DNA from: an uncultured Bacteroidota bacterium
GTDB taxonomy: Bacteria > Bacteroidota > Bacteroidia > UKL13-3
DNA length: 45,399 nt
Direction: 5' to 3'
Assembly: GCA_903883965.1 (NCBI GenBank)
Contig: CAISCU010000017.1
Location: forward strand, 1 to 45,399
The notes below the pieces were generated by a model. That model was not told the DNA's origin. It made no database searches and saw nothing but the letters and a program-made list of their open reading frames with translations. Shown here piece by piece: positions 17,203 through 39,258 of the stretch. Every line of letters begins with the position of its first letter. The first letter of the stretch is position 1. Made by a program: the position numbers and the translations under genes.

Positions 17203-17622
17203 ATGGCATATCCAGAAATGTTAGTTGCTCCAATGAGACAACAATTAGAAAATGTTGGATTCAAATCTTTGATGACACCATCAGAGGTAGAACAAGCCCT
17301 TTCAAATAAAGAAGGAACTCAATTATTGGTTTTCAATTCGGTTTGTGGATGTGCAGCAGGAACTGCCAGACCAGGAGTCATTGAAGCCGTTGAAAAATCA
17401 GCCCAAAAACCTGCTCAATTGTTAACTGTATTTGCTGGACAAGAAACTGAAGCAGTTGCCAAAGCCCGAGAATTTACTTTGCCTTACCCACCTTCTTCGC
17501 CAGCTATTGCATTGTTTAAAAATGGCGAATTGGTGCATTTTGTAGAAAGACACATGATTGAAGGACGCAGTGCACAAATGATTTCAGCTCATTTACAAGC
17601 TGCATTTGACTCTTACTGCTAA
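17203..17622 (+). CDS. Bacilliredoxin, BrxA/BrxB (YphP/YqiW) family
   Basis: A 139-residue thioredoxin-fold protein with the CGC active site at residues 48-50 in NSVCGCAAGTARPG, the hallmark of the BrxA/BrxB family. In Bacillus these proteins remove bacillithiol from S-bacillithiolated proteins after oxidative stress. Length and the conserved opening (AYPEMLVAPMRQQL) fit the family. The gene stands alone on the plus strand between the divergent ahcY and the convergent copper monooxygenase gene (22-nt gap, no terminator). Bacillithiol is known in some Bacteroidota, so the function fits, but no bsh gene lies in the window. Confidence 0.92.
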   Translation: MAYPEMLVAPMRQQLENVGFKSLMTPSEVEQALSNKEGTQLLVFNSVCGCAAGTARPGVIEAVEKSAQKPAQLLTVFAGQETEAVAKAREFTLPYPPSSPAIALFKNGELVHFVERHMIEGRSAQMISAHLQAAFDSYC

Positions 17623-17644: not shown

Positions 17645-18976
17645 TTACTCATTGGGTAAGTCTTCATCTCCTTTTTTGTATGGAATATAGGTGAGTATGA
17701 GTTGGAGCATCTCATCAGTAGTTTTCATACTTCCGTTCCTGTCCCTAATTAATTGAGGCGGAGAGAACGGATTATTTGGGTTTTGTGAAGTATTGTCATA
17801 AACAGCTTCTACATAAATTTGGCTTCCTCTTGGCAATTTTAATAAATGAGGAGGTCTATAAAAATATTGCCATCTAAAATCCCATTGATTGATTGCAATC
17901 AAGCGTACAGTATCTCCACTTGGTTTAATGGCATATGACTTGAATTTTTTGCCAATCAAATGCATGTGAGGAACCATATTCAAGATAGAAATATCTTCAG
18001 GTACAGTAAATTCAATTTTAAATGTTTTGATCTGATTAGCCGGAATACTCAAATCGGGTACAACCGGGCTCAATCCGAGTGTGCCAATCTGAAATTCTTT
18101 CACTGGTCTAACAGGTGCTTTGTCTGTTAAATAAATTTTAAAATAAGATGAATCAATAACAGGTATTGGACTTGGACCAAAATGAATGTCATTGATATAT
18201 AAAACGGCTTGTTTAGTAAGCGAGAATCCCCCAATACCTTCAGGGTATTTAGAAAATTGCGCACCCGGTAAATAATTGCAAACAGAAGGGGTCATTGCAG
18301 GGTATGAACCATCAGTATAGCACAGGTTTAAATCTTTGTGTATGCGCTGACTTTCTTGTTGGTTTTGATCGACCCAATAAGGCGCTGAATGGGGGAATGC
18401 AGTTTGTGTTTCTGAATAATTAATTAAATGTGCATTCATGTGGTGCACCAATTTCAATTGATGCGGCACAAACTCAATTGCCTCTATGTATGTATTGGCT
18501 GGAACTTGAATGGGGTATTTGGCTACAAAAAAGTGGTCTTTGTTATCGCCTTTAATTAAAAATGGTTGAGGCAGTTTTACAACTATAAAATTTGAGTTCT
18601 TAATTTGTTGGTTTGGGGGTAATTCCAATTGCAGGCTACTGTCTCCAGCTGGCATTCCGCTTGTCACCCATTTTTGAATTTGATTAATTTCTTTATCAGA
18701 CAACGCCAATTCACCAGTAAAATGAGCATATTCTGGATCAGCAGGCCAAGGTGGCATTATTTTTTGTTGAACCACATGGGCAATCAATTGACCTTTAGAA
18801 GCAATTTCTTGGTAATTGGTTAATGGAAATGGACCTCCTCCATTTTGTTGGTGACATTTGATACATTTCTGCTGAACAATAGGAGCAATGTCTTCAGAGA
18901 AATTGGGTGTTGTATTCATTTGACATGCCGATAAGAGTAAACAACAAATCAGCAATAAGTTTATTCTATGAAACAT
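17645..18976 (-). CDS. Lipoprotein fusing c-type haem domain and copper type II monooxygenase domain
   Basis: A 443-residue lipoprotein (lipobox LSAC, Cys18). Residues 25-115 form a small c-type cytochrome domain with C38-I-K-C41-H42 and a possible axial Met74 in KIMPPW. Residues about 130-435 resemble the catalytic core of peptidylglycine alpha-hydroxylating monooxygenase (copper type II, ascorbate-dependent). All the copper ligand types of that core can be matched: HH at 178-179 and H265 in IHFG for the CuH site; H337 and H339 in PHMHLIG, and M423 in TTDEM, for the CuM site. It therefore looks catalytically competent. Location: periplasm or outer membrane face. The substrate is unknown. Its start overlaps the redoxin gene by 16 bp, so the two are translationally coupled. 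Confidence 0.85.
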   Translation of the reverse strand: MFHRINLLLICCLLLSACQMNTTPNFSEDIAPIVQQKCIKCHQQNGGGPFPLTNYQEIASKGQLIAHVVQQKIMPPWPADPEYAHFTGELALSDKEINQIQKWVTSGMPAGDSSLQLELPPNQQIKNSNFIVVKLPQPFLIKGDNKDHFFVAKYPIQVPANTYIEAIEFVPHQLKLVHHMNAHLINYSETQTAFPHSAPYWVDQNQQESQRIHKDLNLCYTDGSYPAMTPSVCNYLPGAQFSKYPEGIGGFSLTKQAVLYINDIHFGPSPIPVIDSSYFKIYLTDKAPVRPVKEFQIGTLGLSPVVPDLSIPANQIKTFKIEFTVPEDISILNMVPHMHLIGKKFKSYAIKPSGDTVRLIAINQWDFRWQYFYRPPHLLKLPRGSQIYVEAVYDNTSQNPNNPFSPPQLIRDRNGSMKTTDEMLQLILTYIPYKKGDEDLPNE

Positions 18977-19521
18977 CCAATGGCGGTTTTAGAGGTGTAT
19001 GGCATGTTTTGATTTAGCATCAATTTTTTCAATTGCATCTCCAAATCATGAATGCTCGTAAGGGGTCTGGTTTTTCCAGGGGCATAGGCCCAGTTGTCTA
19101 TTCTACCACTGTAAATAAGCTTATAATTGCTATTCAAGACAAAGACTTCGGGGGTAATTCTTGCTTTTAATAATTGAACCAATTGCAGTTGTTTGTCAGT
19201 GAGGTAAGTCATGTTCAATTGGTAAGTTTTTATAAAGTTCTTTACAGCTTTTGAGCCAGTTTTACCGGTTGATATGGCATACCATTGCACCTCTTTGCCA
19301 AATTTTTTCTGAAGTTGTTTGAAAACAAGGGTGTATTGCTGACACAGTGGACAATCGGGTGAATAAAACCACAATACCGTAGCTTTGAACTTGTAAGCAT
19401 CTTGAATGTATTGGCTTTGGTTGTTTAAATTGTACAAGGGGGTAGATTCAATTTGCTTTTGTGCCATTGCAACCTTGGCAAATCCTATTAACAGCATACA
19501 TAAAAGATAGTAGAAGCGCAT
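18961..19521 (-). CDS. Secreted thioredoxin-like redoxin (CPLC active site)
   Basis: A 186-residue protein with a signal peptide (residues 1-20, ending VAMAQ) and a TlpA/redoxin-type thioredoxin fold. The active site is CPLC in YSPDCPLCQQ near residue 57, after strand ATVLWFY. Further fold markers are VQWYAIST and the TPEVFVLN cis-Pro loop near 123. Expected role: periplasmic thiol-disulphide or peroxide chemistry. The end (AIGCFIE) carries an additional Cys. The gene overlaps the copper/haem monooxygenase gene by 16 bp and starts 1 nt after the 81-residue membrane protein gene, so all three form one unit. It may keep copper-site cysteines reduced or supply electrons; this is inferred. Confidence 0.85.
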   Translation of the reverse strand: MRFYYLLCMLLIGFAKVAMAQKQIESTPLYNLNNQSQYIQDAYKFKATVLWFYSPDCPLCQQYTLVFKQLQKKFGKEVQWYAISTGKTGSKAVKNFIKTYQLNMTYLTDKQLQLVQLLKARITPEVFVLNSNYKLIYSGRIDNWAYAPGKTRPLTSIHDLEMQLKKLMLNQNMPYTSKTAIGCFIE

Positions 19522-19522
19522 A

Positions 19523-19768
19523 TTAGCTGTTTTTTAGTTGGTATTCAAAACCAGGTTTGCGGTATATTACTTTGTCTTTTTGTTCGTGCAAGGGCGCTGT
19601 TTCAACAGCAATAGGCAATGGTTTGTCTTTGATGAAATAAAGTATCACATTTGAAATGATGGGCAAAAACAGGCCCATCATAAACCAGAACCAAAAAGAA
19701 TGCCCCTTTGATCTGGCATAATAACCTGATATAGGTGGATGTAATAACAATAAAGGGAGTAGTTCCAT
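19523..19768 (-). CDS. Small membrane protein of unknown function
   Basis: An 81-residue protein. Two hydrophobic stretches (residues about 3-15 and 25-46, the second with FWFWFMMGLFLP) flank a positively charged turn YYARSKGHS, so one to two transmembrane segments are expected with a hydrophilic C-terminal tail of about 30 residues in the cytoplasm or periplasm. The ARSKG-x-x-F-WFWF pattern is common in small bacterial inner membrane proteins of unknown role. It is first in the unit with the redoxin (1-nt gap) and the haem/copper monooxygenase. It starts 12 nt after the T run of the accC terminator and no clear promoter is visible, so it could rely on readthrough. Confidence 0.65.
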   Translation of the reverse strand: MELLPLLLLHPPISGYYARSKGHSFWFWFMMGLFLPIISNVILYFIKDKPLPIAVETAPLHEQKDKVIYRKPGFEYQLKNS

Positions 19769-19779
19769 CTTTGGGTAAT

Positions 19780-19803
19780 AAAAAAAAGCCCCTTGCGGGG
19801 CTT
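19780..19803 (-). terminator. Rho-independent terminator after accC
   Basis: A 7-bp perfect stem (AAGCCCC / GGGGCTT, 19786-19792 and 19797-19803) with loop TTGC, followed on the minus strand by eight T. It starts 7 nt beyond the accC stop and closes the yceD-accC block. Confidence 0.88.
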
Positions 19804-30435: not shown

Positions 30436-33400
30436 ATGAAGAAAATATACTCACTACTCGTATTTGTATTTGTGATTCAGTTTGGGCTCTTTGCTCAGTC
30501 TGGTATGGGAACAATCAGGGGAAAAGTAATTGATGGCAAAACAAAAAAGCCTTTGGATTATGTCAGCATTACCATTAAACTGAATGGCGTAGCTAAAGCC
30601 ACAGCCCTCTCTGATGATGAAGGAGGTTTTATTATTAAGGCTTTACAGCCTGGAGAATACGAATTGTATGCCACTTATGTTGGTTATCCAAACACTACTT
30701 TAAAGGGTATTTATGTAGGAGCAGAAGAAGATAAATTCATTGATTTTTCTATGTCTGCAGACAATGAACTCAAAGAAGTTGTAGTTACTGTAAAGAAAGA
30801 ATTGATTGACCGTGGCGGTGTAAAAGGAGGTAAATTAACTTCACAAGAGATCATGAAATCGCCGGTAAGGAACGTGAACTCTATTGCCAATACGGTGCTT
30901 GGTGTAGAATCTAGAAATGGATCTACCCCAAACTTTAGAGGTGCAAGGGCTGAAGGTACAGCATATTACATTGATGGGGTGAGAGTAAATGCAGGTGCCA
31001 ATAGCATTCCGCAAAATGCCATCGACCAAATTCAAGTAATTACAGGTGGAACCCCAGCGCAATATGGAGACTTTGTTGGTGGTGCAATCAGTATTACAAC
31101 CAAAGCTCCAACCAAAAATTTCAATAGAGGTATAGAAATCATAACAGCTTCTCCATTCAACAGCTATTTAGACAATTCTCATTATAACCAAGTTCAAACC
31201 TTAATTTCTGGTCCTATCAAATCAATCAACAAAGGTCGTGGTTCTGAAGAAAGGGTATTGTTAGGATTTTTATTCTCTGGTTCATTTACCTACAGCAAAG
31301 ATGGTTCTTTACCAGCGGTAGATTTGTATCAAGTGAAGGCCTCAAAATTAAAAGAATTACAAAATACACCTTTGGTGCCAAGTGCGTCTGGAACATTGTT
31401 CAATGCCGCAGAATATTTAAGAGCATCAGACTTGGAAAAAGTTGGTTACAGACAAAATGCAGCAGGTTATTCAGTTAATATCAGTGGTAATTTCAACTAC
31501 CAACCTACAAGAAACGTAAATGTAAGATTGGGTTATTTTGGAAACTTCTCACAAGGAAGAAACTGGAGTTCATTCAGCTCTTTGATGAACAATGATAACA
31601 ACTCTTTGTCAAAATCGAATGTGTTTAGAACGTATGTTCAGCTAACCCAAAATTTTGGTAAAGATTCTGAGAAAAACAAAGATGATGCCGCTAAGAATGG
31701 AGGTATCAGCAATGCTTTCTATTCTGTTAGATTGTCATATGAACGCATTGCCTCTGAAAGCATGGACGCAGAATTTCAGAACAATTATTTTGATTACGGC
31801 TACCTAGGTAAATTTACTACTTATCAAGCGCCTACTTTTTCGAGAGTTGCCAAAGGTTTTGGAGCACCTGCAGATAGTTTCTTAATGGACAATGGTAAAT
31901 ACATTCAGTTAACCAATTATTACAGACAATCGGGTTCCGTTGATACCGCTTACACTTTTGAGCAAGCAGATATCAATACCGTTCGTGGAAATTATACCAA
32001 AGCTTTATACAATTTCTTAGGTGCTGGTAACATCACCAATTTAGGAACTGTGAGACAATTTGGAGGATTAATCAATGGTGACAATCCAAATGGCATTTAC
32101 TCAAATATGTGGAGCAATGTTGGAACCAATGGCAATGGCTATTCTAAGGGATTGTCAGAAATTTATACCCTTTACATCATGAGTGAATTTAGCATTGCAC
32201 CAAAAAGCAATCCTAAAGCCAAACATGAAATTCAATTGGGTATTACAGGAGAGCAACAATTCAGACGTTCATACAGTTTAAGTACCAATGGTCTTTGGTC
32301 TTTGATGCGCTTAAATGCAAACAGACAATTCCTAGGATTAAATACATCTAGTGACAGTGCCATCTTAAAATTTGACCAAAATGGCGTGTTTCAAGATACA
32401 GTTTGGTTTAACAAGCGCATTGTTGCCGATCAACAAACCAATTTTGATAAAAATTTAAGAGACGCATTAATTAGACAAGGTGCAGTTGATGCCAATGGCA
32501 ATCCTATCAATCAGTACAGTTTCATTGATGTGAATTCATACAAACCAAGTACTTATTCTTTAGACATGTTCAATGCAGATGAATTGTTGAACAATGGTAA
32601 TTCTATTGTGAGCTATTCTGGTTACGACCATTTGGGTAACAGCATTGGTTACAAGAAACCATCTTTAGATGATTTCTTAAACAATCCTACTTCAAGGTTA
32701 TTACCAGCCTACCAACCAACATATTTGGCAGCTTGGGTTCAAGACAAATTTGTATTCAAAGATTTAATTGTTCGTATAGGGTTAAGAATGGAAAGATTTG
32801 ATGCCAACCAGCCTGTGTTGAAAGATCCATATAGCATGGCTCCTATTTATACAGTTGGAGAGGTTAAAGGAAGCAGCGAAAGCAGATTCAGTAACTTGAA
32901 AAATCAAATTCCTACAACCATTGGCGATGACTATGCCATTTACGTAAACAATGAAAAATTTGGTGATGGTGGACAAAGTGCAAGTTTAAATGTAGCTGGT
33001 TTTAGAAGTGGCAATAATTGGTACGATAAAAATGGCAATCCAGTTACCGACCCTCAACAGATAGCCAGAGATGCTGGTACAACTAGAAACACTCCTTTAC
33101 TCATCGACCCATCAAATCCAAATAAACCAACCGCTGCTTCATTTAAAGATTATGAGCCAGATTTGAAATTATTACCAAGGGTTTGGTTCTCATTCCCAAT
33201 TTCAACAACCAGTCAGTTTTTTGGAACCTACGATATATTGACACAAAGACCTTCTGCAAATGTTGGACAAATTGACGATTACTATTTCTTACAAAACAGA
33301 TTGAGTGATGGTGCAATTGCCAACCCGAATTTGAAAATGACACAAGTAACCGATTACGAAATTGGCTTCCGTCAACAAATTGGACAAGATGCTGCATTGG

Positions 33401-34233
33401 GTATCATTGCCTCATACCGTGAATACAGAAACATGGTTCAGTTGTATAGATACATTCAAGCATGGCCTAACGACTACAATACGTTTGGAAACTTAGACTT
33501 TGCAACAGTTAAAAGTATTGGTTTGGAATACAATATTCGTGAATTAGGTAATGTATCATTGGGTGCAAATTACCAATTGCAATTTGCCGATGGTACTGGA
33601 TCAAATGCAACCTCTAGTGGTGCATTGGTTCAAGTAGGATTGCCAACTTTGAGAACAATTTTCCCGCTTGATTTTGATACCAGACATACAGTAAAATTAA
33701 GTTTTGATTACCATTACAAGTCAGGTAAAGAATATGATGGTCCAGTGGTAGCAGGCAAAAAGATTTTAGAAAATGCAGGATTGAACTTCATTTTTACTGC
33801 TTATTCTGGAAGGCCTTATACCCAAAACATGTTACCTACTCCTGACGGAGTTCAGTCAGGTGTTGTAGTAAGAAGTCCATTAAAAGGAACAATCAATGGT
33901 GCCAATTTGCCACCACAATTCAATGTAGACTTAAACATTGATAAGAATTTCGAATTCAAACAAAAGAAAATTGACGGTAGCACAACTTTCTATAGGTTGA
34001 GAGTGTTCTTATGGGTTCAAAACTTATTGAATACAGCTAACGTTACTTCAGTGTTCAGATATACTGGAAACGCATACAATGATGGATTCTTAGCTTCTCC
34101 GCAGGCGCAAGAACAAATTAGAACCGCAACCGATCAACAATCTTATGTTGACTTGTACAATGCAAGAATGTTAAATCCTGATAGATTTAGTTTACCTCGT
34201 TTAACTCGTATTGGTGTTGCCCTTTATTTTTAA
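30436..34233 (+). CDS. TonB-dependent outer membrane receptor
   Basis: A 1265-residue outer membrane protein. The signal peptide covers residues 1-20 (ending LFAQ). Residues about 26-110 form a carboxypeptidase-regulatory-like beta sandwich (GTIRGKVIDGKTKKPLDYVSI), followed by a TonB-box-like ELKEVVVTV, then the plug domain (about 125-220, with YYIDGVRVNAG and GGTPAQYGDFVGGAISI). The remainder is the 22-stranded barrel, ending in Phe (IGVALYF) as expected for insertion by the BAM complex. No SusD gene follows; instead the next gene encodes a large T9SS cargo (12-nt gap) and then a PorV-like barrel. The ligand is unknown. Confidence 0.9.
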   Translation: MKKIYSLLVFVFVIQFGLFAQSGMGTIRGKVIDGKTKKPLDYVSITIKLNGVAKATALSDDEGGFIIKALQPGEYELYATYVGYPNTTLKGIYVGAEEDKFIDFSMSADNELKEVVVTVKKELIDRGGVKGGKLTSQEIMKSPVRNVNSIANTVLGVESRNGSTPNFRGARAEGTAYYIDGVRVNAGANSIPQNAIDQIQVITGGTPAQYGDFVGGAISITTKAPTKNFNRGIEIITASPFNSYLDNSHYNQVQTLISGPIKSINKGRGSEERVLLGFLFSGSFTYSKDGSLPAVDLYQVKASKLKELQNTPLVPSASGTLFNAAEYLRASDLEKVGYRQNAAGYSVNISGNFNYQPTRNVNVRLGYFGNFSQGRNWSSFSSLMNNDNNSLSKSNVFRTYVQLTQNFGKDSEKNKDDAAKNGGISNAFYSVRLSYERIASESMDAEFQNNYFDYGYLGKFTTYQAPTFSRVAKGFGAPADSFLMDNGKYIQLTNYYRQSGSVDTAYTFEQADINTVRGNYTKALYNFLGAGNITNLGTVRQFGGLINGDNPNGIYSNMWSNVGTNGNGYSKGLSEIYTLYIMSEFSIAPKSNPKAKHEIQLGITGEQQFRRSYSLSTNGLWSLMRLNANRQFLGLNTSSDSAILKFDQNGVFQDTVWFNKRIVADQQTNFDKNLRDALIRQGAVDANGNPINQYSFIDVNSYKPSTYSLDMFNADELLNNGNSIVSYSGYDHLGNSIGYKKPSLDDFLNNPTSRLLPAYQPTYLAAWVQDKFVFKDLIVRIGLRMERFDANQPVLKDPYSMAPIYTVGEVKGSSESRFSNLKNQIPTTIGDDYAIYVNNEKFGDGGQSASLNVAGFRSGNNWYDKNGNPVTDPQQIARDAGTTRNTPLLIDPSNPNKPTAASFKDYEPDLKLLPRVWFSFPISTTSQFFGTYDILTQRPSANVGQIDDYYFLQNRLSDGAIANPNLKMTQVTDYEIGFRQQIGQDAALGIIASYREYRNMVQLYRYIQAWPNDYNTFGNLDFATVKSIGLEYNIRELGNVSLGANYQLQFADGTGSNATSSGALVQVGLPTLRTIFPLDFDTRHTVKLSFDYHYKSGKEYDGPVVAGKKILENAGLNFIFTAYSGRPYTQNMLPTPDGVQSGVVVRSPLKGTINGANLPPQFNVDLNIDKNFEFKQKKIDGSTTFYRLRVFLWVQNLLNTANVTSVFRYTGNAYNDGFLASPQAQEQIRTATDQQSYVDLYNARMLNPDRFSLPRLTRIGVALYF

Positions 34234-34245
34234 TATAAAAGTATC

Positions 34246-37200
34246 ATGATAAATATGAATAAATTAACTTCCAATCTTTTATTGAAACCTGCATTTGTTT
34301 TGTCTTTGTTAGCATTGACAACAAATGGTTTTGCAAAAGAAGTAATTGGACTAGGGAAACGTGGTGCCGATCAGCTGTTTAAAAAAGCAAGTGGTTGCGA
34401 ACCCGCCTCTCAGCAAAAAGATTTAGACATCAACAATGTTAGAACAACCATTTTAAATGGTGGTGACATGTGGTGGAATTTAAGCAATGCAAGGTATGAA
34501 GTTCCTAAAGTTGGAACTGGACAAGTTTCTAAGCATTCATTGTTTGCTGGAGCATTGTGGATTGGGGGCATTACTCAAGGCAATTTGAGAATTGCGGCAC
34601 AAACATACCGTCAAAGTGGTAATGATTATTACCCAGGTCCATTACAAGTAGATGGAGCAGCAAAAGGTTCAGTGAGCAAGGAGACTTGTAAAGCTTATGA
34701 CCAAATTTGGAAAATAAGCCTCCAAGAAATAGACCAGTTTAGAAACAATCCTGATAATTGGAGCAATGCGCCTGATGTGATTACAACTTGGCCGGGTAAT
34801 GGAAAAGCTGGAGAAGCCAGAACACTAGCTCCGTTTGTTGATTACAACAACGATGGTATTTATGATCCAGTTTCTGGAGATTATCCTTCGTTTGATTACA
34901 ACAATCCTCAAAATATTCCTGATATGATGTTGTATATGATTTACAACGATAAAGGAAACATCCACTCTGAAACAGAAGGTATGGCTATTGGGTTGGAATT
35001 GCACACTCAATGTTTTGGTTATTCAACCAATGATGAAGTAAATAACATGACTTTCTATAGAACTACCATTTATAACAGAGGTACAGAAACAGTAGATAGT
35101 TGTATTTTTGGTCAATGGGTTGATGCCGACCTTGGTAACTATTCAGATGACTATGTAGAATGTGATGTGAAAAGAAATTTAGGTTTGTGTTACAATGGTG
35201 ATGACAACGATGAGGGTATTTTAGGATACGGCTTGAACCCACCAAGTGTTGGTGTGAATTTCTTTGAAGGACCTAGAAGACCTGATGGATCAGAAATTGG
35301 TTTGACCAAGTTTGTTTATTACAACAATGACTTTTCGGTAACGGGTAATCCTAGAAGACCTGAACATTATTGGAATTACCTCAATGGTAGATGGACAGAT
35401 GGTTTGAGTATTACCTATGGTGGAAATGGAAGAGGTGGAACAGATACTGCTTCATTTATGTTCCCTGGATCATCAGATCCTGCAAACAGAGAAGCATGGA
35501 CAGAAAAAATAGCAAATAACCAACCTGGAGACAGAAGGTTTATGCAAACTGCAGGCCCATTCAGTTTATTGCCTGGTGCAAGAAACGAAGTTACGATTGC
35601 CGTTGTATGGGCAAGAGCAACAACTGGAGGTTCTACAGGTTCATTTAACTTGTTAAAAGAAGCATCGGATAAAGCGTATGTGCTTTATAACAATAATTTT
35701 AAATTTATTGATGGCCCATCTATACCTACAATGGAAATTACAGAATTGGACAGGAAATTAATCATCAATATAACTAATTATCAAAAAACCGAAGCCTATG
35801 TAGATTCAAGTGCTGGTTTGTGTGATGACAAAACTTTATACAAATTCCAAGGTTATCAGATTTTCCAAACCAAAACAAGTTCACCTCCAGGAGATATATA
35901 CAACAGTGATGAAGCCCGTTTGGTTGCACAATGTGATATAGCCGACGGCGTAAACATGATTGTTAATATTGTAAACGACCCTGATTTGGGTAGTACCAAA
36001 AAAATCATGGTCGCTGGAGCTGATAAAGGTGTTCAACACAGTTTTGAAATTTCAAAAGATCTATTCTCAACAGCTTCTGATCAAACATTGATTAATTTCC
36101 AAAATTACCATTACTATTTAATTGCTTATTCAAGTGCGGTAAATTGTTCAAAAGAACAAACACAGTATTTAGCCGGTCGTAAAAGATTTGATGGGTCAGC
36201 CAATACTACTTACATGGCTGTTCCTCATAAAGCTGCTCCGCATGCAAATGGTACCACATTAAACTCAACTTACGGAGATGGTCCTGAAATTCAAAAAATA
36301 GAAGGTATTGGAAATTCAGGTTTGGAAATTCAATTGACTGAAGAAACCATTCACAAAGCATTGTTGGCTCCATATTATGTTGAAGTGCCAAAATATAAAA
36401 TTGGGTTTGGACCTGTAATGGTGAAGGTGATCAATCCATTTAAAATTCCACATGCAAATTTTGAATTGCGTTTTATTGACAGTTCAAATTCGGATAAAGC
36501 AGCACAATTAAATGGAGATACAGCTTATTGGACCTTGAAAAATGTAAGTACTGGTGAAGTTGTTAGAGCTGAACGTTCTTTAGGTGCTCCAAATGAGCAA
36601 ATATTTGCAAATTGGGGATTGAGCGTTACAACCCAACAAGCTACATCCCTTGGCAATCCAGATGATGCAAATGATATCAGTAATGGATTTGTAAGTGGAT
36701 CAATAGAATTTGAAAATCCAAATTATGTTTGGTTATCTGGAGTGCCTGATGAAGCAGCTCCAATTTCTCAATTCAACTGGATTAGAGCAGGTAAAAATGG
36801 AGATCCTGAATATGGTAATTTCTTCGAACACGATTTTGCGGCTGGTTCAAAAGCACCTAAAAGCCCAGTTGATCCTAGAAAAGCATTTAGTAAAGTAATT
36901 GGTGGAACTTGGGCGCCATATGCATTGGCAGCAAGAGCCGTTGCTTCAGACACCAAACAATCTACATATGGTCCTGCATGGGCAGTAGCTTCAGATGGTA
37001 AAGGTTCCGCTGGTAATGGCGGATACACTACCGATAACCAACTGTCAGAATTGCAAGGTGTTGATTTGGTTCTTACTAATGACAAATCATTGTGGACACG
37101 TTGTGTAGTTGTTGAAGCTGGTGAAAATTACAACTTAACAATAGGTGGTGCTGTTAAATTAAACAGAAGAAAATCACCATCAGTTGATAAAAATGGCAAG

Positions 37201-38106
37201 CCAGACGGAACTGGTAATGGAATGGGATGGTTCCCTGGATATGCTGTAAATGTAGAAACAGGAGAGCGTTTAAACATTTTATTTGCTGAAGATTCTTCAT
37301 TGCCAACAGAAAATGGAAATGACATGATTTGGAATCCAACAGGTAATTATATTTCTAATAATGCTGGTGGAATGGAATTTTTATTTGGAGGTAAACACCA
37401 TGTTTATATCATGGGTACAAAAGCTTTCAGGTCAACACCAACAAGTCCTATAAGCTACAGAGGTCCAAGATACGATGAGGGTAAAAGCTATGACAGTTTG
37501 TTTACTTTAATTGAAAATGGTACAAATCAAACACTATTAAAAAGATACCTTTATTCACAAGCAATGTGGGTGTCAATGCCTATCACACAGCCTAAATATC
37601 CAATGTTTAGTGCTGAACAAGGTTTGATTCCTACTAAAACAACTGTGAAATTAAGAGTAAAAAGACCTTATGCTTCTTACACCAACACTTCTAGTGTTTT
37701 AGAAAACAATGGTTTGCCTTTGTACAGATTCTCTACTGAAAACATTGCACCTACGACAGCCACACCAGAGGCTAGAAAAACAGCTTTGGATTTGGTTTCA
37801 GTTTCACCAAACCCATACTACGCTTATGCTGGATATGAAGATCCAAACAACCAATTGGATGCAAGAGTTAGGTTAACCAACTTGCCTAAATTTTGCGTAG
37901 TTTCTATTTATACTCAGAGTGGATTTTTGGTTAGAAGAATTAGAAAAGACGATGACTCTAAAACATACATTGATTGGAATTTAAAAAATGACGCCAATGT
38001 GCCTATCTCGAGCGGTATCTATCTAATACATGTTTATGACGGAAGTTCTGAAAAAGTAATCAAATGGTTCGGAATCATGCGTAAAACTGATTTTGATACT
38101 TTTTAA
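34246..38106 (+). CDS. Large T9SS-exported surface protein, conserved, function unknown
   Basis: A 1286-residue secreted protein. The signal peptide ends near residue 30 (NGFA-KEV); there is no lipobox. FVDYNNDGIYDP (197-208) is a calcium-loop-like motif, followed by a conserved-looking segment with YNDKGNIHSETEG, TNDEVNNMTFYR and GQWVDADLGNYSDDYVECD. Residues 1185-1286 form a T9SS type A-like sorting region: SVSPNPYYAY, a FlgD-Ig-like beta sandwich (VSIYTQSGFLVRRI, SGIYLIHVY), with an unusual extended end KWFGIMRKTDFDTF. It sits between a TonB receptor and a PorV-like protein, suggesting a surface partner of the receptor. Two start codons are possible (34246 or 34255). Function cannot be assigned. 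Confidence 0.8.
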   Translation: MINMNKLTSNLLLKPAFVLSLLALTTNGFAKEVIGLGKRGADQLFKKASGCEPASQQKDLDINNVRTTILNGGDMWWNLSNARYEVPKVGTGQVSKHSLFAGALWIGGITQGNLRIAAQTYRQSGNDYYPGPLQVDGAAKGSVSKETCKAYDQIWKISLQEIDQFRNNPDNWSNAPDVITTWPGNGKAGEARTLAPFVDYNNDGIYDPVSGDYPSFDYNNPQNIPDMMLYMIYNDKGNIHSETEGMAIGLELHTQCFGYSTNDEVNNMTFYRTTIYNRGTETVDSCIFGQWVDADLGNYSDDYVECDVKRNLGLCYNGDDNDEGILGYGLNPPSVGVNFFEGPRRPDGSEIGLTKFVYYNNDFSVTGNPRRPEHYWNYLNGRWTDGLSITYGGNGRGGTDTASFMFPGSSDPANREAWTEKIANNQPGDRRFMQTAGPFSLLPGARNEVTIAVVWARATTGGSTGSFNLLKEASDKAYVLYNNNFKFIDGPSIPTMEITELDRKLIINITNYQKTEAYVDSSAGLCDDKTLYKFQGYQIFQTKTSSPPGDIYNSDEARLVAQCDIADGVNMIVNIVNDPDLGSTKKIMVAGADKGVQHSFEISKDLFSTASDQTLINFQNYHYYLIAYSSAVNCSKEQTQYLAGRKRFDGSANTTYMAVPHKAAPHANGTTLNSTYGDGPEIQKIEGIGNSGLEIQLTEETIHKALLAPYYVEVPKYKIGFGPVMVKVINPFKIPHANFELRFIDSSNSDKAAQLNGDTAYWTLKNVSTGEVVRAERSLGAPNEQIFANWGLSVTTQQATSLGNPDDANDISNGFVSGSIEFENPNYVWLSGVPDEAAPISQFNWIRAGKNGDPEYGNFFEHDFAAGSKAPKSPVDPRKAFSKVIGGTWAPYALAARAVASDTKQSTYGPAWAVASDGKGSAGNGGYTTDNQLSELQGVDLVLTNDKSLWTRCVVVEAGENYNLTIGGAVKLNRRKSPSVDKNGKPDGTGNGMGWFPGYAVNVETGERLNILFAEDSSLPTENGNDMIWNPTGNYISNNAGGMEFLFGGKHHVYIMGTKAFRSTPTSPISYRGPRYDEGKSYDSLFTLIENGTNQTLLKRYLYSQAMWVSMPITQPKYPMFSAEQGLIPTKTTVKLRVKRPYASYTNTSSVLENNGLPLYRFSTENIAPTTATPEARKTALDLVSVSPNPYYAYAGYEDPNNQLDARVRLTNLPKFCVVSIYTQSGFLVRRIRKDDDSKTYIDWNLKNDANVPISSGIYLIHVYDGSSEKVIKWFGIMRKTDFDTF

Positions 38107-38145
38107 TTGCTTGAGTTATTTACCTTATTGAAAAAGAAAATTGAC

Positions 38146-39258
38146 ATGAATAATAAAATTAAAATAGGTTTGGTTATGACGTTGCTTTCTGGTTTTACTG
38201 CATTTGCAGGTAATCCAGATAGGGCAGGTGGTGCAGGTGCAACTCAATTAGTTGTCAATCCGTTTGCGCGTTCATCAGGCTTGGGAGGCATTGGAACAGC
38301 CAATGTAAGAGGTGTAGAATCTTTTTACTTAAATATTGGTGGTTTGGCTTATACTACTGGAACTGAAGTTGCATTTAGTAGAATGAATTATTTTGCTGGT
38401 ACAGGAATTAGTATCAATAATTTAGGAATTGCTCAAGCATTGGGAGAAGAAGGAAGTGGTGGTGTGATGGGGCTGGGTATTACCTCTTGGGATTTTGGAG
38501 ATATTCCAATAACATCTTTTGACAATCCAGATGGTACTTTGCCAAGTTACAAGCCACAATTGTTAAACTTGAATGCTTCTTATTCAAAACAGTTTTCAAA
38601 CAGTATTACCGGTGGTGCTTTGTTAAGAATTGTTTCTGAAGGTACAGCAGATGTAAGAGCGGCTGGTGTTGCCATGGATTTTGGCGTGCAATACCAAACT
38701 TCTTTCAATTCTAAGATGAAGAAAATTAAAAAGGAAGATTTTAGATTGGGTATTTCAGTAAGAAATATTGGTCCAGATTTAACTTATACGGGCGCTGGTT
38801 TGTCTTTCAGGGCTATCAATACCTCTACCGGTGCTGACCGTAGAGCTTTATTTGATGCTGATTATTTTAATTTGCCAGCATTGGTAAACATAGGTTTGGC
38901 TTATGACATGAGATTAGACCAAAACGATAACACCTATTATCACAGATTAACCGCTAACGGAAACTTTCAATACAATGCATTTCAATCAAATGTATTGGGC
39001 TTAGGAGCGGAATATGCTTACAAAGAAATGTTCATGTTAAGAGGTGCATACTTAATTCAGGAAGCAAACTCTTTTAAGCACAATCCGAGTAATCCAAGTA
39101 ACATGGCATCTGATTATGGTTTTTGGGGAGGATTAACCTTGCAAATGCCAATTTCTAAAAATGGAACTGCATTTGCATTAGATTATTCTTATGCTCCTAC
39201 TCGAATTTTCAACGGTATGCACACTGTTGGCATTCGTTTGACGCTTTCAGGTAAATAA
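38146..39258 (+). CDS. PorV/PorQ family outer membrane beta-barrel protein
   Basis: A 370-residue predicted outer membrane barrel. The signal peptide (MNNKIKIGLVMTLLSGFTAFA, 1-21) fixes the start at ATG 38146; the frame is open back to a TTG at 38107 but that would bury the signal peptide. The mature N-terminus has the PorV/PorQ/UPF0164-like pattern: GGAGATQLVVNPFARSSGLGGIGTA followed by LNIGGLAY. Amphipathic strands run to the end (VGIRLTLSGK). PorV is the T9SS shuttle that receives cargo by its C-terminal signal. This paralogue directly follows a T9SS cargo gene (39-nt gap), so a dedicated role for that cargo is a fair inference. Confidence 0.8.
   Translation: MNNKIKIGLVMTLLSGFTAFAGNPDRAGGAGATQLVVNPFARSSGLGGIGTANVRGVESFYLNIGGLAYTTGTEVAFSRMNYFAGTGISINNLGIAQALGEEGSGGVMGLGITSWDFGDIPITSFDNPDGTLPSYKPQLLNLNASYSKQFSNSITGGALLRIVSEGTADVRAAGVAMDFGVQYQTSFNSKMKKIKKEDFRLGISVRNIGPDLTYTGAGLSFRAINTSTGADRRALFDADYFNLPALVNIGLAYDMRLDQNDNTYYHRLTANGNFQYNAFQSNVLGLGAEYAYKEMFMLRGAYLIQEANSFKHNPSNPSNMASDYGFWGGLTLQMPISKNGTAFALDYSYAPTRIFNGMHTVGIRLTLSGK

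Follow-up and report, generated by a model that had tools for sequence, protein, structure and literature searches.

Peptidylglycine alpha-hydroxylating monooxygenase (PHM) and dopamine beta-hydroxylase (DBH) are familiar above all as eukaryotic ascorbate enzymes, and animals make noradrenaline and amidated peptide hormones with the same two-copper core. A stretch of DNA from an uncultured Bacteroidota bacterium (contig CAISCU010000017.1 of assembly GCA_903883965.1; the whole 45,399-nucleotide stretch is called the window below) encodes a lipoprotein that appears to join such a core to a c-type haem domain, and its gene overlaps that of a redoxin. The question raised by this locus is what the lipoprotein does and by what route electrons would reach it. 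The answer that we favor, with somewhat better than even confidence, is an envelope-anchored, periplasmic dicopper hydroxylase of the PHM/DBH fold that is fed through its own haem and has the redoxin as an accessory thiol partner.

Organization of the Gene Run

In the window, accC is followed by three minus-strand genes encoding an 81-aa putative membrane protein (19523..19768), an exported thioredoxin-like redoxin of 186 aa (18961..19521), and the haem c/copper type II monooxygenase-like lipoprotein of 443 aa (17645..18976), the last defined by its ORF, a structural model, orthologues, and paralogues. An intrinsic-terminator-like hairpin (19786..19803, minus strand, z -3.3) lies between accC and the run. 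The redoxin and monooxygenase genes share 16 bp (18961..18976), with the monooxygenase ATG lying within the Gly182-Cys183 codons of the redoxin (GGATGT). The lipoprotein begins with a signal peptide (18923..18976, minus strand) whose lipobox, LSAC, contains C18, a residue kept in 30 of 30 orthologues. Viral contig and plasmid searches gave no match. Re-checking of ORFs and sequence confirmed every coordinate, strand, and length in the first-pass annotation as well as the 16-bp overlap, and C38, C41, H42, H178, H179, H265, H337, H339, and M423 were all found at the positions it had given.

Fold and Homology of the Copper Core

The Pfam families for this enzyme class are Cu2_monooxygen and Cu2_monoox_C (PF01082 and PF03712). 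Searched alone, the lipoprotein matched PF03712 weakly (19.4 bits, below the cut-off of 23); no NCBIfam model above cut-off covered it, and phmmer with the single sequence found no chain in the PDB. Its proposed link to PHM and DBH depends instead on the profiles of its relatives and on a predicted model. The AlphaFold model, built from a 38-sequence alignment, had a pLDDT of 87.2 and a pTM of 0.81. Foldseek with this model placed DBH at the top (E 2e-14) and PHM second, and VIA-align gave Z 20.2 to human DBH (4zel) over 280 residues, Z 17-20 to PHM entries, the rat enzyme among them, and 8.5 to the next fold, lysosomal PNGase. The double-jelly-roll fold is common to PNGase F, PHM, and DUF2961 (PMC8812541).

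Profile searches pointed the same way. A profile from the lipoprotein alignment (A1) found PHM at E 1.5e-4, and a profile of its more divergent relatives (A3) found DBH at E=7.6e-13. The A3 columns vHH, HY, HmH, and DEM aligned with the DBH motifs of H262/H263, H333, H412/H414, and M487, which are copper ligands in the published numbering (PMC4846438); the lipoprotein DEM was aligned with EEM in DBH. One relative (L046) scored 34.2 bits against PF03712, above the cut-off. Profile alignments and conservation predict that H178-H179 (18440..18445) and H265 (18182..18184) are the three CuH ligands, equivalent to DBH H262/H263 and H333, and that H337-M-H339 (17960..17968) and M423 of the D-E-M motif (17708..17710) supply the three CuM ligands, equivalent to DBH H412/H414 and M487 (all on the minus strand). 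Model and profiles together place the predicted core, with its two jelly rolls, in the PHM/DBH-type copper type II monooxygenase superfamily. The initial identification as a haem c and copper type II monooxygenase with all six copper ligands was thereby borne out by fold, profiles, and conservation, and the comparison with PHM that had been proposed as a check gave a strong fold match and did not turn up the scattered ligands that would have told against it.

DBH (4zel) shares with the lipoprotein the double-jelly-roll core, the CuH His3 and CuM His2Met sites, and the presence of an N-terminal domain before the core, which in DBH is a DOMON domain. This DOMON domain has a fold like that of the cytochrome domain that binds haem in cellobiose dehydrogenase (PMC4846438). 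Whereas DOMON in DBH is without haem ligands, the window protein has a c-type haem domain with its ligands intact; it also differs in being a lipoprotein and in having a copper domain without invariant cysteines. PHM (1phm/1sdw) agrees with it in core fold and in all six copper ligands, but in the window protein the peptide-anchoring residues are not conserved, a haem is fused, and there is no lyase domain. There is good support for reading the lipoprotein as a member of a known enzyme class that carries a fused haem, and not as a new kind of system.

Conservation of Metal Ligands

The GTDB family was surveyed through 50 homologues. CxxCH and M74 were kept in all 50, and the six copper ligands were all kept in 49. 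Among these 49 (about 29-91% identity; L051 excluded), exactly ten of the 32 His, Met, and Cys residues of the window lipoprotein were invariant, and these ten comprise the six copper ligands and the four haem ligands. A second set of greater divergence (20-52% identity) showed no variation in the same copper-ligand columns either. The chance that all nine residues named before the alignment would fall among ten residues of 32 made invariant at random is 23/C(32,10), or about 4e-7, and chance occurrence of the ligands was rejected; the corresponding figure for all ten is 1.6e-8, but M74 was chosen only after the alignment had been seen. The first-pass annotation had named a lack of ligand conservation in homologues as possible grounds for giving up its reading, and the survey found the ligands conserved. 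The lipoprotein gene also appears to be under purifying selection, with dN/dS of about 0.1 and 0.07 against two near relatives.

The single exception, L051, carries H179A, H265E, H337N, and M423E together, with an intact haem motif. Joint loss of four of the six copper ligands is as expected if the copper sites act as a unit. L051 (4012-5601, plus strand; G009:C55) is a paralogue with a type IX sorting tail and represents a natural copper-site-free version of the protein.

The Haem Domain

The c-type haem domain (residues ~25-110; 18647..18904, minus strand) is all-helical in the AlphaFold model and gave sub-threshold Pfam matches to Cytochrome_CBB3, Haem_bd, and Cytochrom_C. It contains the attachment motif C38-I-K-C-H42 (CIKCH; 18851..18865, minus strand), and M74 of an MPPW motif (18755..18757, minus strand), invariant in the alignment, is the probable distal (sixth) ligand, which would give a His/Met-type c haem. 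Among solved structures, the best profile relative was hydrazine synthase (alpha subunit, haem region; 5c2v), a weak match (E 2.6e-5) to a different enzyme in which the likeness is limited to the haem domain. Genes for cytochrome c assembly proteins and for a haem-copper oxidase are present in the genome, so that maturation of the c haem and a pool of electrons in the periplasm are both plausible. Separate haem-domain-only matches resembling the N-terminal haem domain were seen elsewhere in the same genome (G000:C19:64523-65652).

The Redoxin and Its Cysteines

The redoxin matches Pfam AhpC-TSA/Redoxin (AhpC-TSA 1.8e-12). Its closest solved folds are 3u5r (Sinorhizobium), 2ywi (Geobacillus), and 2cvb/2ywo (Thermus), all at Z 18.6-18.9, while ResA and CcmG folds scored Z 14-16 (ResA 15-16). 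It shares with the 2ywi/2cvb type the thioredoxin-like fold and a C-terminal Gly-Cys-x-Ile, which in 2ywi and 2cvb aligns with C183; unlike 2cvb, 2ywi, and 3u5r, it is exported and is encoded with, or fused to, a haem-copper protein.

C57 and C183 (18973..18975, in a GC[FY]I motif) were invariant in 45 of 45 relatives. C60 was replaced in 11 of the 45, by Ser in five; the other six have CNTCPxV, with an extra Cys three residues before C57. With C60 variable, the conserved pair is C57 with the C-terminal C183. The conserved CxxC of ResA, TlpA, and CcmG was therefore not found across these 45 relatives. The CPLC motif noted at first is present (C57-P-L-C60; 19342..19353, minus strand), but it is not the defining thiol motif of the protein.

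Linkage of Redoxin and Monooxygenase

The redoxin adjoins the copper gene in nearly all orthologues; the departures are L007/L069, with two genes in between, and L010, which ends at a contig edge. In L069 (1610-6260) the intervening genes encode 482 and 320 aa, at a place where near relatives have the overlap. Of 67 redoxin rows, 44 have the monooxygenase ATG at exactly the same offset, a count in which some loci appear twice. One protein (L140; 2759-4555, minus strand; G181:C1), from a genome of the window's class and described as a flavobacterial-class protein, is a single 599-aa chain in which redoxin, haem, and copper parts follow one another as their genes do. Its redoxin part has CPMV and SKGC, keeping only the C57 and C183 equivalents.

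Of 109 family members, 45 have the redoxin adjacent or fused, 51 have none nearby, five have it farther away in the locus, and eight were untestable; on the family tree, about 17 changes are needed to account for this label. Of 22 genomes without an adjacent redoxin, 19 carry some relative at another site, and in seven of these the relative is strong (~100 bits or more). The haem is thus universal and the adjacent redoxin optional (CxxCH in 50/50 homologues versus a redoxin beside or fused in 45/101 testable members), which argues that the redoxin is an accessory partner. Gene order and sequence nevertheless indicate that it is a genuine functional partner of the monooxygenase: the coupling proposed in the first-pass annotation held up in the adjacency, the conserved 16-bp overlap, and the one natural fusion.

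Proposed Function and Alternative Explanations

In DBH and PHM, CuM binds O2 and carries out hydroxylation, while CuH passes electrons on in two one-electron donations (PMC4846438). The preferred reading builds on the computed fold, homology, ligand conservation, universal haem, and redoxin linkage of the lipoprotein. O2 would be bound and activated at CuM, and each turnover would draw two electrons, one at a time, from the fused haem to CuH. This bacterium is an aerobe, and its pool of periplasmic cytochrome c may be the source of these electrons, in place of ascorbate. The retained haem by itself leaves the direction of electron transfer unproven. Most likely the redoxin, through C57 and C183, would protect or re-reduce the mature enzyme (peroxide or thiol/copper maintenance) and would not be an obligatory donor of electrons.

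Two other roles for the redoxin have to be weighed against this one. It could be a maturation factor outside turnover, keeping the CxxCH cysteines reduced for haem attachment (ResA/CcmG-like) or delivering Cu(I) (Sco-like). This is the less likely course, yet one to be taken seriously: the only invariant cysteines of the monooxygenase are the haem-attachment pair, which leaves the copper domain without a conserved disulfide as a target for the redoxin, the ResA and CcmG folds are recognizable at Z 14-16, and the redoxin can lie at another site in the genome or be missing from the neighborhood. It is weakened by the closest solved relatives, which are 2ywi, 2cvb, and 3u5r rather than ResA, and by C60 of CPLC, which 11 of 45 relatives do without. 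The L140 chain, in which the redoxin stays joined to the finished enzyme, also fits poorly. Alternatively, the redoxin thiols could reduce the haem or the copper directly in place of ascorbate. The absence of an adjacent redoxin from about half of the family, with the haem kept in all, makes this improbable, as does the fact that thiols are two-electron donors and the haem and copper sites accept one electron each, even though adjacency, overlap, and fusion are conserved features and the haem domain of L140 sits between redoxin and copper core.

The chemistry is also subject to alternatives. It seems unlikely that the dicopper fold has been turned to peroxygenase or oxidase activity or to copper or redox sensing, given that every copper ligand, the CuM Met among them, is strictly conserved in the 49 homologues other than L051 and in the more divergent set. 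Hydroxylase activity of the family is itself predicted from sequence and model, however; the substrate-anchoring positions of PHM are not conserved, and the natural paralogue L051 keeps its haem without four of the six copper ligands. A true peptidylglycine alpha-hydroxylating enzyme that makes amidated peptides would have the same fold and copper ligands. In PHM, R240, N316, and Y318 anchor the carboxylate of the peptide C-terminus. The equivalents of R240, Y318, and N316 in the 49 homologues are mostly V/N, I/V, and Q/R, respectively, and since they are not kept, peptide amidation is most improbable; a Pfam search saw no lyase (PAL) domain in the lipoprotein either. The peptide substrate of PHM type that had been considered at first is accordingly disfavored. 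We retain the self-fed dicopper hydroxylase with an accessory redoxin as the preferred reading.

Electron transfer between the distant copper sites of PHM and DBH is still debated (PMC4846438). A version from bacteria that carries its own haem donor would offer a spectroscopically visible electron route and a bacterial expression system, together with a whole enzyme family in which to look for natural substrates.

Relatives and Neighboring Genes

In a sample of 296 Bacteroidota genomes, about 20 encode full-length relatives, and a scan of GTDB contigs confirmed at least 584 candidate stretches. A search of the open-access literature, with subscription papers outside its scope, found no paper and no biochemical data on haem-fused bacterial PHM/DBH proteins. 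Similar redoxin-cytochrome-monooxygenase proteins may also exist in Planctomycetota and Myxococcota, a lead beyond Bacteroidota.

A paralogue clade of eleven loci (L032-L042) lies in an operon with a dihaem CCP/MauG-type protein (642 aa), joined in four by a Rieske protein, so that these family members stand beside other electron carriers. A longer paralogue clade carries type IX secretion sorting tails. The gene neighborhoods differ between clades, which suggests different substrates. More tentatively, and with confidence short of even, these proteins may be widespread bacterial self-wired copper hydroxylases that take respiratory-chain electrons through the fused c haem, have a dedicated C57/C183 redoxin, and act on a substrate class new for PHM/DBH.

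The order in the L032-L042 operons is a ~610-aa protein with a T9SS tail, the CCP/MauG dihaem protein, sometimes the Rieske protein, and the haem-copper protein, with a TonB-type receptor in some of the operons. The ~610-aa protein is PhoX-like by eye, and Pfam gives its sorting tail only.

The first-pass annotation had proposed a neighbor survey for co-occurrence of all three genes. The redoxin was kept, whereas the 81-aa membrane protein, which is without a Pfam match, has a relative detected beside the redoxin in only five of 30 orthologous loci (the window's included) and was rejected as a third component. Also rejected as partners were accC, the bacilliredoxin, and SAH hydrolase: beyond near relatives these neighbors are lost, but the pairing with the redoxin continues. 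The bacilliredoxin gene (BrxA/BrxB family; 17203-17622, plus strand) converges on the monooxygenase gene and lies beside it only in near relatives. Farther along the window, 34246-39258 (plus strand) encodes proteins of 1286 and 383 aa with no Pfam match at 1e-5, and upstream of these genes is one for a TonB-plug/carboxypeptidase-regulatory-domain protein (30436-34233).

Short C-terminal monooxygenase remnants (61-64% identity) lie beside an intact gene near L008/L054 (G008:C2:78888-80524), as if a tandem copy had decayed. One orthologue (G003:C495:3961-5222) is split by a TAA and a change of frame, and is either a broken copy or an assembly error. In L124 (4356-6275, plus strand) a single frame fuses a partial BrkB/YihY membrane protein to the haem-copper protein, and BrkB-type genes precede the haem-copper protein in about 11 other loci.
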